Source: Actinomyces oricola (lineage in GTDB: Bacteria; Actinomycetota; Actinomycetes; Actinomycetales; Actinomycetaceae). Taken from it: a stretch of DNA of 64,000 nucleotides. How positions within the stretch are numbered: position 1 is the first letter of the stretch; the number at the start of each line of letters is the position of its first letter. The DNA lies in NCBI RefSeq assembly GCF_004104015.1, contig NZ_RYFV01000004.1:62001-126000 (forward strand), in the 5' to 3' direction. The position numbers and the translations under genes are program-made. Under the pieces are notes generated by a model. The model was not told the origin of the DNA, did no database searches, and saw only the letters and a program-made list of their open reading frames with translations. Below are positions 21,277-55,576 of this stretch, piece after piece.

Positions 21277-21568
21277 GACACTCCAGGAGGTGAATATGGG
21301 GAAGGGTCTCGAAAACTCGCCCTATACCGGGTCGGGATGGGGCGAGACCGGAGCCCCAGCGCCCGGGTAGGGCAGTCCTCCCCATTGGGGGCGCGGTGGC
21401 ATCGAACGCACGTCCAGGGCCACCAGCCCCTCCCGCCCCTCCGGCCCCTCCAACAAAATCCTCACAGCACAACGTCCACGGAAGGTGTGCTGTGAGGATT
21501 TTGTTGGGGGTGGGGGTGCGCCAGTTGGGGGGTGGGGGCGCCGGGGGACGAGCGGGGGACGTTGCGGC
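21277..21568. other. Intergenic region carrying palindrome copy 1
   Basis: It separates the lipoprotein gene from the end of the polyprenyl synthase gene. It holds the first copy of the long palindromic repeat, with pyrimidine-rich sequence on its left and G-rich sequence on its right. No gene is seen. Confidence 0.6.
21450..21507. repeat. Long palindromic repeat, copy 1
   Basis: Arms at 21450-21471 (CCAACAAAATCCTCACAGCA plus CA) and 21486-21507 are perfectly complementary over 22 bp around a 14-base centre. It lies 62 bp after the stop codon of the polyprenyl diphosphate synthase, at the very end of the nuo operon, where it could end transcription. There is no T tract. Two more copies are at 43709-43774 and 54340-54407. 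Confidence 0.95.
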
Positions 21569-41200: not shown

Positions 41201-41896
41201 ATGAGCCGAGCCAGCCTCACCAAGGACCCCCATGAGGTCGCAGGCATGTTCGACGCCGTCGCGCGCCGCTATGACCTGACCAACGACGTGATGAGCCTGT
41301 GGCAGGTGCGCATGTGGCGCGCTGTCACCCGGGCCGCCGTCGGAGCCGGCCCTGGCGACCGGGTCCTGGACCTGGCTGCGGGCACCGGCACCTCCTCAGT
41401 GGAGTACGCCGCCGACGGCGCCCAGGTGGTGGCCTGCGATTTCTCGACCGGCATGGTCGCCGCGGGCAAGCGGCGCCACCCCCGGACCGTCTTCGTCGCC
41501 GGGGACGCCATGGCCCTGCCCTTCGCCGACGACTCTTTCGACGTCGTCACCATCTCCTACGGGCTGCGCAATGTGCAGGACACCAGCGCCGCCCTGCGGG
41601 AGATGGCGCGGGTGACGCGCCCCGGCGGGCGGGCGGTCATCGCCGAGTTCTCCACCCCGGTGGGCGGGCCACTGCGCACCGCCTACCGCTTCTACCTGGG
41701 TAGAGTGCTGCCTGCCGCAAGCCGCCTGATCTCCTCCAACACCGAGGCCTACGACTACCTGGGCGAGTCCATCCTGGCCTGGCCCGACCAGAAGACCTTG
41801 GCGGCCCTCATGCAGGAGGCGGGGTGGCGCCAGGTGGGGTACAAGAATCTCTCGGGTGGGATCGTGGCCGTCCACCGCGCTACCAAGCCCTCATGA
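41201..41896 (+). CDS. menG: Demethylmenaquinone methyltransferase
   Basis: A 231-residue SAM-dependent methyltransferase for the last ring step of menaquinone synthesis. It shows the UbiE/MenG signatures [16 protein letters not shown] (17-32), SAM motif [10 protein letters not shown] (56-64), YGLRNVQD and the [15 protein letters not shown] segment. ATG 41201 fits the family N-terminus. Its stop overlaps the menF start (ATGA), so the two genes form an operon. It is divergent from menJ. Confidence 0.94.
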
Positions 41897-43758
41897 TCAG
41901 GCCCGTGGAGGACGGCGCCAGGCGCCAAGGCCCCGACCGCGCGCCATTGAGGGCATCCACTGATTCCCCCAGCGACGTGGGGCGCCTTCGCCTCACGGCC
42001 GGTGCGGCGGCCCTGGATCCGCCGCGCCTGAGCTGGCGCACCACGGCGCTTGCGGCCACAGACCTGGCCCGCCTGGCCGCCGGCGCCATCTCCTCGACGG
42101 CGGGCGCCGCCAACGGGGCAGGGACTTCCTGGGGGGCGCCCGGCCCGGTCGATGCGGGCGCCCCCGTCCCCCACCGGGCGGGGCCCGGTGGGCGTACCGG
42201 TCTCGGCCTCGCAGGCGCCGCGCCCGTCCCCCACCGGGCGGGGCCCGGTGGACGGTCCGGTCTTATTGACCTGCTCGCGGGGCGGGACGATGTCTGCTCC
42301 TGGGTTCGCGACGGTCAAGGCCTGGTCGGATTCGGGCGCATTCTGGAATTGGACGCCCAGGGCGAGGGGCGCATTGACGAGTTGCGCTCGGCCTGGCGGG
42401 CGGTGGTCTACGCCTCCTGGTGGTCCGACCCCCTGGTGCGGCCCGGGACCGGGCCGGTGGCCCTGGGAACTATCACTTTCTCCCCCGACTCCGCAGAACG
42501 CTCGGTACTGGTGGTGCCCGCCGTCCTCATTGGGGTCGACCAGGAGGGGGCCTGGGCGACCACCGCCGTCCTGGCCGGCCAAGAGCACCCTGGTCCGCAG
42601 GCTCTCATCGACGAGCTCCTGACGACAGGCCGGGCGTCGTCGTCCCCAGTCGGCCTCCCCCACCGCGCGCCTGCGCGCAGGCGCGCACCTGAAAGCGCCG
42701 CCGGCGAGTCTTCCGCCCGCGCGCAGCGCCCTGGAGCGGCGTCCAGGGGCGCCACCGGGTCTCCCGCTCAAGCACCGCCGTCCGGGTGCGCCCCCGGGGG
42801 CGGCGCCAGCCCCTGCGAGGCCGGGTCCGCCCGCGTGGGCGCCGGGGCCCTCTCCGCCCGGCAGTGGTGCGGGGCCGTCAAGCGCACGCAGGAGCGGATG
42901 CGCAGCGGGGAAGCGGCCAAGGTGGTCCTGGCCCGCGACGCCCTCGTCAGCCCTGATGAGCCGATGCGCACTGGGGACCTGCTTCGGCGCCTGGCCGTCG
43001 CCTACCCCTCCTGCTGGACCTTCGCTGTCGACTCCATGGTGGGCGCCAGCCCCGAGCTCCTGGTGCGCCTGGAGGGACGGTGCCTATTCAGCCGGGTGCT
43101 GGCCGGCACCGCCCGCCGGCGTGTTGGCGCCACAACCGAGCAGGACGCCGCCCTAGCGACATGGCTGGAGGGGTCGGAGAAGAACAATCGGGAGCATGCT
43201 CTGGCCCGTGCCTCCGCCCTGGAGGCCCTGGAGCCGCTGTGCTCGGTGGTGGAGGCGCCACCGCGCTTCGTGCTGGAGCTGCCCAATGTGCTGCACCTGG
43301 CCAGCGACATCACCGGCGTGGTTGCCGGTGACACCGGGGCCCTGTCCCTGGTAGGCGCCCTGCACCCCACTGCGGCCGTGTGCGGGACCCCCACCACGGC
43401 GGCGGCGCGGATCATTGCCGAGGTCGAGGGCATGGACCGGGGGCGTTACGCCGGGCCCGTGGGCTGGGTGGACTGGCACGGAGAGGGTGAGTGGTGCATT
43501 GCCCTGCGCAGTGCCCGCCTGCCCGCCGGCGGGGTTGGACCAGGGGCTCCCGCACGGGTGTTCGGCGGGGGCGGCATCATGCCCGACTCCGATCCGGCCG
43601 ACGAGTTGGCTGAGACCCGCGTCAAAATGCTCCCCATGCTCCAGGCCCTCGGCGCCACCGCCCCCTCCCCCGCCCTCCCGCCTCCCCTCCCTCCCGCCCT
43701 CCAACCTCCCCTCCAACAAAATCCTCACAGCACAACGTCCATGGATGGTGTGCTGTGA
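41893..43758 (+). CDS. menF: Isochorismate synthase, enlarged by low-complexity inserts
   Basis: Converts chorismate to isochorismate, the first menaquinone step. The C-terminal chorismate-binding domain has [55 protein letters not shown] and [17 protein letters not shown]. The protein is 621 residues against a usual 400-480; the excess is Ala/Gly/Pro-rich, at about 70-125 (with a 60-base direct repeat) and 245-325. The last 15 residues and the stop codon come from the palindromic repeat at 43709-43774, after a proline-rich tail. ATG 41893 overlaps the menG stop. Salicylate synthase is excluded by context, not by sequence alone. Confidence 0.88.
42163..42251. repeat. 29-bp direct repeat inside menF
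   Basis: Two identical 29-bp copies (starting CCCGTCCCCCACCGGGCGGG) at 42163-42191 and 42223-42251 are 60 bases apart and in frame. They encode the doubled [12 protein letters not shown] segment of the menF N-terminal insert. Confidence 0.9.
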
Positions 43759-43774
43759 GGATTTTGTTGGAGGG
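43709..43774. repeat. Long palindromic repeat, copy 2
   Basis: Arms 43709-43734 and 43749-43774 pair perfectly over 26 bp; five more pairs and one G-T pair continue into the centre around CCATGG. It lies between the convergent menF and htrA genes, and the menF stop codon (43756-43758) is inside the right arm. The core matches copy 1 over the full 22-bp arm. Confidence 0.95.
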
Positions 43775-43807
43775 CGGGTGGGCGAGTGGCGAGGCGGTGG
43801 GGGGCGC

Positions 43808-52975: not shown

Positions 52976-54310
52976 TCAGGCGGCGTCGCGGGTGACGGGG
53001 CAGGTCATGCAGTGGCCGCCGCCGCGACCACGGACCAGTTCGACACCGGGGGATTCAATGACTTCGACTCCAGCGCGACGCAGGGTGTCGTTGGCGCGCT
53101 GGTTGTGCGCGTAGCCAATGACCCGCCCGGGGGCGATCGCCACCACATTGCACGAATCCCGGGCGAGCTCGCGCAGGGCCTCGGCCTCGTCGGACATGTC
53201 GGGGCTGATAATGCGGAAAGAATCAATGCCGGCGGCTCGGGCCAGCACTTCGTCCATTTCAGCCCCGTCGTGGACAGTGACCTTGAGAGCCTGACCGTTA
53301 GTGCCCGGTTCAATCTCCACGGTGGTGACATCGTTGAAACCGGAGAAACGTAAATAGGTGTCTGGGGAGACCATGGTCATGAGGGTGTCCAGGTGCATGA
53401 CCGCGTCAAGCTCGGTGTAGAAGGCGCGGTCGGGCATGTGCACGCCAATGACCCTGTCGGCGACGCCGTCGGCGAAGAGCCGGGTGGCCAGGCGCTCCAC
53501 CCCAGCGGCGCTGGAGCGGTGGGTCAGGCCCATGACCAGGGCGCGGTTGCCCAGGACCTGGAAGTCGCCGCCCTCGACGGTGGCGGTGGAGGCTCCGTGT
53601 CCCTCGGACCACAGGAGGCTGCGCCCACCATCGTTCAGGCGGCTGGTGAAGACCGGGTGGTAGCGGTAAACGGCCTCATAGTTGACAGCCTCGCGGCGGC
53701 GGGGGGCCAGGGCCATGGTGTTGACGGAGACCCCGCCGTAGAGCCACGCGGAGGTGTCGCGGGTGAAGAGGTGGTTGGGCAGGGGGGTGACGACGAACTG
53801 CCCCTCCAGGGTGGACAGGTAGGTGGTGTTGAACAGGGTGGCGGCGTCGGCGGGGGTGAGGCGCTCGTGCAGTTCGGCGCGGGTGATGCCGGCTAGGAGC
53901 ACTTCGGCGAGCTCGGCGTCGGGCAGGGACTGGAAGTAGTCGATGAGAACCTCGGAGGTGGACACGCCCACCGCGTCGGGGCCGACGGTTTCAGTCAGGA
54001 CTAGGGAGCGGGCCTCGGGGTTGGCCAGCGTTTCGGTGAGCAGGTCGCGGAAGTCGTGGACGATGACGCCCTCGGCGCGCAGGATGGCCGTGAAGGCGTC
54101 GTGCTCGGCCTGGGCGCGGGCAATGTTGAGGGCGTCGTCGAAGAGCAGGGAGTTGGCGTTGATCGGGGTCAGGCGGGAGATCTCGCGGCCGGGCCGGTGG
54201 ACGATGACCTCGCGCAGCCGGCCTGTCTCAGAGCCGACACGCCCACCGCCGTCAGCGCGGAGGATGAAAGGGCGGGCCTGCGGGGAGGCGAGGTCGGGTG
54301 TCGTCGTCAT
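52976..54310 (-). CDS. arcA: Arginine deiminase
   Basis: Hydrolyses arginine to citrulline and ammonia, the first step of ATP-yielding arginine fermentation. The 444-residue protein has the family motifs [50 protein letters not shown] and the catalytic cysteine in [14 protein letters not shown] near the C-terminus. There is no Shine-Dalgarno sequence; a TACCCT box 6 bases upstream of ATG 54310 suggests a leaderless transcript. A perfect 68-bp palindrome lies 29 bp upstream. Confidence 0.94.
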
Positions 54311-54322: not shown

Positions 54323-54339
54323 ACGGGCCCGGCCGCCTC

Positions 54340-54407
54340 CCCCTCCAACGAAATCCTCACAGCACAACGTCCGCGGACGTTGTGCTGTGAGGATTTCGTT
54401 GGAGGGG
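54340..54407. repeat. Long palindromic repeat, copy 3 (perfect over 68 bp)
   Basis: The sequence equals its own reverse complement from 54340 to 54407, centred on CCGCGG at 54371-54376. Compared with copies 1 and 2, the arms read CCAACGAAAT/ATTTCGTTGG in place of CCAACAAAAT/ATTTTGTTGG, a paired change on both sides. It lies between the divergent starts of arcA and menB, so here it cannot serve as a simple terminator. Confidence 0.97.
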
Positions 54408-54448
54408 AGTAAGGTCCGGCGCATTGGGCCGAGAGGCGGGCGCCGGCC

Positions 54449-54460: not shown

Positions 54461-55576
54461 ATGCCAGGCTCTCAGGCGGATGCCGCCCGCTACCCCGTGC
54501 CCGCATGCGTCTCGGAGGTCTTCGCTCCCGCTCGCTGGCGGGAGGTTGAGGGTTTCACTCACGGCCCCGGGGGCCTGGCCGATATCACCTACCACCGCGG
54601 CTGTGTGCGCGACGGCGACGGCGTCTGGGTGCGAGATCTGCCGGTGGTGCGAGTGGCCTTCGACCGGCCCGAGGTGCGCAACGCCTTCCGACCCCGAACC
54701 GTTGACGAGCTCTACCGGGTTTTGGACCACGCGCGTATGAGCGGGGATGTTGGCGCCGTCATCCTCACCGGTAACGGCCCTTCCCCGCGCGACGGCGGCT
54801 GGGCCTTCTCCTCTGGGGGCGACCAGCGCGTCCGAGGGCGCGACGGCTACCGCTACGAGCGCGAAGAGGCCGCACTCGACGCCGCCGGCGAGCAGGCGGG
54901 CGCGGCCGGGGCGCCCCCCGGGCGGGCAGCCGCCGACGGCGCCGTCGTCCACGACGGCTCTCACGCCCACGATCACGCCGCTGACGTAGTAGCGGTCCGC
55001 GAGCGCATTGACGCCGCCCGCGCCGGACGGCTGCACATCCTGGAGGTCCAGCGCCTCATCCGCACCATGCCCAAGGTTGTCATCGCTGCGGTGAGCGGCT
55101 GGGCGGCCGGCGGCGGACACTCCCTGAACGTCGTGTGCGACTTGTCGGTGGCCAGCGCCGAGCACGCCCGTTTCAAGCAGACCGACGCCGACGTGGGCAG
55201 CTTTGACGCCGGCTACGGTTCTGCTCTGCTGGCGCGCCAGGTCGGGGACAAGCGCGCCCGCGAGATCTTCTTCCTGGCGCAGGAGTATTCGGCGGCCGAC
55301 GCCGTGCACTGGGGTGTGGTCAATGAGGCCGTGCCGCATGCCCAGCTGGAGGACAAGGCCCTGGAGTATGCGGAGATCGTGGCCGGCAAGTCGCCCCAGG
55401 CGATCCGCATGCTCAAATTCGCCTTCAACCTGGCCGACGACGGCCTGGCGGGACAGCAGGTGTTCGCCGGGGAGGCCACGCGCCTGGCCTATATGACTGA
55501 TGAGGCCGCCGAGGGCCGTGACGCCTTCCTGGAGCGCCGCACCCCGGACTGGTCGCCCTTCCCCTACTACTTCTGA
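54461..55576 (+). CDS. menB: 1,4-Dihydroxy-2-naphthoyl-CoA synthase
   Basis: A crotonase-fold enzyme that closes the second ring of menaquinone. Recognised by [44 protein letters not shown] (active-site Asp/Gly loop) and the C-terminal [16 protein letters not shown]. The 371 residues are longer than usual (about 290-315) because of an Ala/Gly/His-rich insert around 140-175. No Shine-Dalgarno sequence; probably leaderless. It is divergent from arcA across palindrome copy 3. Confidence 0.94.

Follow-up and report, generated by a model that had tools for sequence, protein, structure and literature searches.

This locus raises the question of what three related long palindromes are doing in a stretch of 64,000 nucleotides from Actinomyces oricola (the window, which lies within contig C34 of a genome, G000, of 2,930,686 bases in 78 contigs), where each of them adjoins a gene that looks like part of the menaquinone pathway. 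All three palindromes reported by a first-pass annotation are present. Copy 3 (54340..54407) is a perfect palindrome, identical to its own reverse complement over 68 bp, with overlapping arms of 36 nt that are 100% complementary, and copies 2 (43709..43774, 66 bp) and 1 (21450..21507, 58 bp) carry mismatches in the inner stem; none of the three is assigned to a strand. The paired A/T to G/C difference that sets copy 3 apart from copies 1 and 2 is real. Folded as RNA, copy 3 (54331-54416) reached -72.1 kcal/mol (z -13.4) and copy 1 (21441-21516) -52.1 kcal/mol (z -8.3). A 20-nt arm pattern, with up to three mismatches allowed, matched six times in the window, each time with 0 mismatches, and had 0 matches in each of 100 shuffles. 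Across the whole window, Rfam models at gathering score found three tRNAs only and left the palindromes unmatched.

Two of the palindromes are set in skirts of biased composition. Copy 2 has a C/T-rich stretch on its left (43660..43708), starting at about the position of the MenF-like stop in five related loci, and a G/A-rich stretch on its right (43775..43807) that reaches the stop codon of an HtrA-like gene, while the C/T-rich (21427..21449) and G/A-rich (21508..21530) stretches left and right of copy 1 belong to an extended inverted repeat (21427-21530, 76%).

The claim that each copy lies beside a menaquinone gene held for all three neighbours. Copy 1 follows a polyprenyl synthetase gene, about 61 bp beyond its stop codon, among tandem genes on the minus strand, and copy 2 lies where a MenF-like and an HtrA-like gene converge. 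Copy 3 separates a MenB-like gene (54461-55576, plus) from a divergent gene for arginine deiminase (52976-54310, minus), about 30 bp upstream of the deiminase start, a second neighbour that counts against the pathway link. The link to the pathway itself was not borne out once copies elsewhere in the genome were surveyed. We scanned 40 flanking proteins, which cover 28 of the 30 copies on at least one side (many on one side only; C1:29191 and C77:10966 are the two without a scanned neighbour), and 36 of the 40 matched a Pfam family at E <= 0.001. These families are largely unrelated; the only menaquinone-type neighbours among the scanned proteins are the three in the window, and those outside it include Clp ATPases, LuxS, NUDIX, HAD, permease and P5C reductase. 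One copy, on contig C31, follows a gene for undecaprenyl diphosphate synthase. With 27 more copies elsewhere, and with largely unrelated neighbours at the 25 of those that were scanned, the survey refutes menaquinone regulation, and we regard a control site for this pathway as extremely improbable despite the three adjoining genes. The repeat family deserves annotation as a repeat, not as a pathway switch.

That the palindromes form a family became clear from the genome-wide search, in which a 21-base arm with up to three mismatches gave 29 forward and 31 reverse matches, compared with 0 for a reversed control. Arms and partner arms resolved to 30 full copies across the 2.93 Mb and one lone arm, which upholds the dispersed-repeat part of the earlier suggestion of a repeat family. 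The full copies form a gapless alignment of 66 columns and are near-perfect palindromes of roughly 50 to 78 bp. The lone arm (G000:C67:77624-77644, TGTGGTGCTGTGAGGATTTGG, plus strand) lies near a called gene start without a partner and is either a remnant or a chance match; we left it out of the alignments and the context test.

Outside this genome the family was not found. A 22-base arm with up to three mismatches was present in 1 of 49 genus genomes, its own, and absent from the other 48 searched, and the exact two-arm pattern occurred in 1 of 200 family genomes, again its own. No second two-arm copy appeared in named genome contigs, viral contigs, phages or plasmids, sets that may omit the genome itself. 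Lone arms in three other contigs (one genome, two viral) had no second arm and look like chance. A phage or plasmid origin was rejected, as an 88-base query had 0 matches in 50,697 phage and 72,556 plasmid records at E <= 1. The restriction to a single genome suggests that the family was probably gained recently in one lineage.

Placement relative to genes is strongly biased. Genes were called by a simple codon-usage script on fetched stretches, and the location null was drawn from those stretches, all of which carry copies; the context test covers 29 copies, with C25:27179 dropped because the contig ends before any gene is called to its right. Of these, 24 are closer to a stop codon than to a start codon, against a null mean of 12.1 and with 0 of 20,000 trials as high. 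Ten copies are in convergent gaps (5.0 expected by intergenic length), 14 in tandem gaps and 5, copy 3 among them, in divergent gaps (9.7 expected). Every one of the 14 tandem copies is closer to the stop of the gene upstream: 12 lie 16-86 bp past that stop and two overlap it. Three copies overlap the 3' end of a called gene by an equal amount, with the stop codon inside the element. In element-free gaps, taken from the stretches that carry copies, unique hairpins with a stem score of at least 10 occur in 11/21 convergent, 13/87 tandem and 0/32 divergent cases. These hairpins fill the same slot, and thus the element sits at a position that in this genome is often taken by a unique 3'-end hairpin.

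We think it somewhat probable that the family is a lineage-specific, bidirectional hairpin repeat of 3' ends, serving as a terminator or as a protector of mRNA ends. This reading draws on the symmetry of the element, its 3'-end placement, the slot it has in common with unique hairpins and the conserved pairing of its outer stem; the very stable folds of copies 1 and 3, and a different palindrome family with copies at matching loci in two other species of the genus (see below), also speak for it. Transcribed from either strand, the element would fold as a long hairpin at the mRNA 3' end, where it may help to halt RNA polymerase, protect the mRNA end from exonucleases, or both; at convergent genes a single hairpin could serve both directions. 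Copies would have spread within one lineage through some copying route.

Several features bear on the terminator half of this reading. The divergent setting of 5 of 29 copies, including copy 3, counts against it, since a terminator is unexpected there. A weak T run counts against it as well: on the listed strand, 11 of 30 copies have a run of TTTT or more and 19 have TTTCG or TTCCG, and the T run lies inside the full stem, not after it, where it can pair with upstream A. A scan for a consensus terminator picked out copy 1 only among the three window copies, with totals near those of shuffles (6 vs 3.8, 2 vs 1.2). Judged by eye, the unique hairpins in element-free gaps also mostly have no U run.

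The anatomy of the stem, with pairs numbered d outward from the centre, shows two zones. Across the 30 copies, d11-d28 are nearly invariant except for d24, and d3-d10 are variable except for d6. Changes relative to consensus numbered 56 in 540 inner sites (d2-10) and 13 in 1020 outer sites (d11-23 and d25-28; Fisher P 6e-16), so that the outer stem without d24 has about 8 times fewer changes per site; including d24 the outer count is 37/1080, as d24, the pair by which copy 3 was seen to differ from copies 1 and 2, departs from consensus at 24 of 60 sites (16 copies have G-C there, 10 have A-T, 3 set A against C and 1 sets G against T). Within d11-23, five copies carry paired double changes, representing four distinct events, and there is one unpaired change, at d20. 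The paired changes comprise the same change at d11 in two copies 10 kb apart, different changes at d13 in two copies, and a change at d23 in one copy. Changes in the inner stem are almost all one-sided.

The first-pass annotation had raised selection on the stem and had proposed that unpaired changes in related copies would speak against it, and the answer differs between the two zones. The inner stem (d3-10) has many unpaired changes, which does not fit selection on the stem, and in d11-23 there is only one in 13 pairs, which does. The near-invariant outer arms and the paired double changes also favour it: cells changed on both sides numbered 22, compared with 10.8 after shuffling (0/500 as high), pairs having a both-sides change 9 compared with 5.5 (12/500), and further pair types 23 compared with 19.2 (16/500), though this control can be exceeded without structure because the copies are related and their cells are not independent events. 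Altogether 93.4% of cells were able to pair, compared with 39-51% when partners were slid. Paired changes can reflect selection on the stem or template switching inside the palindrome. The outer stem keeps its sequence beyond what pairing asks of it, and so it may be specifically recognised by something.

Such conservation invites a second explanation, in which the element is a DNA site where a symmetric protein (nucleoid, partition or regulatory) binds two half-sites, each some 20 bp long, that are a fixed distance apart. Near-invariant half-sites, and a length that is fixed in 30 of 30 copies though the inner 20 or so bp vary, are what such a site would present. However, the half-sites of a dimer should vary independently, and d11-23 has four paired events against one unpaired; moreover, placement so strongly at 3' ends is unusual for a regulator, and a perfect stem of 68 bp exceeds what a binding site needs. 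We consider a protein site quite unlikely.

At the foot of all 30 hairpins stands CCAAC...GTTGG, or this motif with one base changed. Beyond the core, most copies have a C/T-rich left and a G/A-rich right skirt, with pyrimidines at 78% for distances of 35-45 nt from the centre across the 30 copies, and this bias fades to background by about 60-80 nt. The sub-motifs CCTCCAAC/GTTGGAGG recur outward in several copies. An in-register stem beyond about 33 pairs was rejected, as pairing there is near composition level. A strand-specific element was likewise rejected, as the orientation of the inner variable arm was, judged by eye, independent of gene direction. The consensus inner arm occurs exactly once in 20 of 30 copies, twice in 4 and not at all in 6, a weak sign of an excess of copies with exactly one.

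The 3'-end bias could alternatively arise because selection removes insertions near promoters, and this is central to a third explanation: a selfish REP- or MITE-like non-autonomous repeat with no host function, copied by an enzyme of the lineage, that survives behind genes as insertions elsewhere are purged and acquires paired changes when one arm is switched as template onto the other. Presence in only 1 of 49 genus genomes and, as the exact pattern, 1 of 200 family genomes would suit such an element, as would the five copies within divergent gaps. Sequence similarity is unlinked to location on the same contig (P 0.30), which is also compatible with a selfish repeat; copies on one contig being no more alike than others, local spreading was rejected. 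The MenF-like gene adds a further point in its favour: comparison with the loci of five relatives (L160, L161, L169, L178, L179) suggests that its native stop has been lost, and its frame runs on into the element. A search for one such enzyme family weighs the other way, with no PF01797 (the REP-associated transposase family) in four genomes, this one and three relatives, and a control positive in 5 of 14 genomes. Inspected by eye, the edges of the 30 copies revealed no direct target repeats, and in most copies the two flanks are of opposite bias, C/T-rich and G/A-rich. The roughly eightfold difference between inner and outer stem is unlike free decay, and a family of unrelated sequence but comparable layout has copies at corresponding loci in two species (see below). 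We treat a selfish repeat as possible but doubtful. The MenF-HtrA junctions of L161, L169, L178 and L179 and the deiminase-MenB junction of L161 have no copy, but the nearest relatives match the MenB gene at only about 80% identity (82% at best), too distant for exact insertion points to be read.

Other members of the genus carry palindrome families of their own. Long hairpins sampled from seven relatives (400 kb of G185 and 200 kb of each of six others) clustered into real-looking families in G174, G205 and G185, while two clusters in G124, one in G152 and some of those in G185 and G174 look like GC-rich matches that arose by chance or pieces of larger repeats; no family emerged by clustering from the G166 or G208 samples. 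A pattern search in G208 nevertheless found a second family (arm CACGACCTTGGGGTACGTT), which is multicopy in 7 of 49 genus genomes and has a single match in G038 and 0 in the window's genome. Like the window's family, it consists of dispersed hairpins with paired variants and repeated outer sub-motifs, its tandem sub-motifs extending the arms outside the core, but it is unrelated in sequence. Five of 11 G208 copies are in gaps called convergent. We compared 9 G174 copies (of 13 listed; L313-L321) with 19 G208 stretches (L294-L312) and found that three lie at a G208 copy locus by both flanks (L315, L319 and L320, with the right flank of L319 offset by about 0.6 kb), one by one flank (L314) and one loosely (L313), with no match for four. 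Part of the CACGACCTTGGGGTACGTT family is thus inherited in place between these two species.

A more far-reaching scheme would have each lineage of the genus maintain its own sequence-specific 3'-end palindrome, grown outward from short sub-motifs, copied without REP transposases, read at its outer stem by a dedicated protein or RNA, and replaced wholesale as a signal between species; we consider this unlikely. Together with the other families of the genus, the window's family offers natural replicate hairpins with paired mutations, through which to study transcript ending or mRNA-end protection in high-GC actinobacteria and the spread of near-identical hairpins to many gene ends within a single lineage.

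Smaller sets of palindromes were also seen in these relatives. A third palindrome (CCGTTGGACCGC...) has three copies in 200 kb of G174 (L244, L247, L252), one with nested outer arms, and G185 has two further families (GACGTACCTT and GGATGAATGTGCAACG), each seen twice in 400 kb (L198:5867-5935 and L194:18704; L196:19106 and L197:6757). In G208, a perfect palindrome at L214:18165-18222 is single-copy in its genome at up to two mismatches; its arms contain AAATCCTCGCAG, in the orientation opposite to the AAATCCTCACAG of the window's element, which is probably a coincidence.

Dispersed stem-loop repeats at 3' ends are a known kind, and the window's palindrome family was not met in our searches; among the matches listed for Actinomyces, for REPs and convergent genes, and for palindromes, no title or abstract opening described it. 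In Mycobacterium tuberculosis, another high-GC actinobacterium, TRIT and other sequence-conserved intrinsic terminators reportedly form a repeated, conserved hairpin at gene ends. The window's family recalls these in having a repeated hairpin of conserved sequence at gene ends in a high-GC actinobacterium, but the organism is different. A TRIT model is named in PMC3526491, and PMC8269248 reports bidirectional transcript ends for Streptomyces clavuligerus.

Closer in general layout are the stem-loop (SLS) repeat families Bor, Ype and Efa (PMC1590033) and those of a catalogue of 92 families (PMC2267715). According to these two papers, Ype and Efa members favour the 3' ends of coding regions, an RNA-level function has been suggested and some families are species-specific. 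As depicted there, SLS families resemble the window's family in being dispersed, largely intergenic and able to fold as stem-loops, with tens of copies and a 3'-end bias; here we found many similar copies (30), stable folds (copies 1 and 3) and intergenic clustering at 3' ends (24/29). By the same descriptions, the window's family differs in host and presumably in sequence, in its long, nearly perfect stem and in its C/T and G/A skirts.

REPs are described as frequent between convergent genes (PMC1525189) and as associated with RAYT transposases and defined by a GT(A/G)G head (PMC2817692). On those accounts the window's family is like REPs in consisting of extragenic palindromes of species-specific sequence that are frequent between convergent genes, and unlike them in its palindrome of roughly 50-78 bp, compared with about 20-40 nt in the REPs listed, and in having no GT(A/G)G head at the hairpin foot in any of the 30 copies. 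It also differs from REPs with RAYT in having 30 copies in a genome where no PF01797 transposase was found, and membership in that class was rejected on the missing transposase and head.

Two further observations concern individual copies. Four copies lie within about 10 kb in L077 (G000:C1:29191-39230), and two of them have the same rare paired G-C swap and look as though one gave rise to the other. In the window, the MenF-like ORF (41824-43758) ends inside copy 2 at the element's own TGA, with a proline-rich tail whose codons come from the C/T-rich skirt together with the palindrome, and the called genes for a prolyl oligopeptidase-like protein (L077:12375-14723) and a DeoC/LacD-like protein (L095:4331-5110) end at the same place within a copy.
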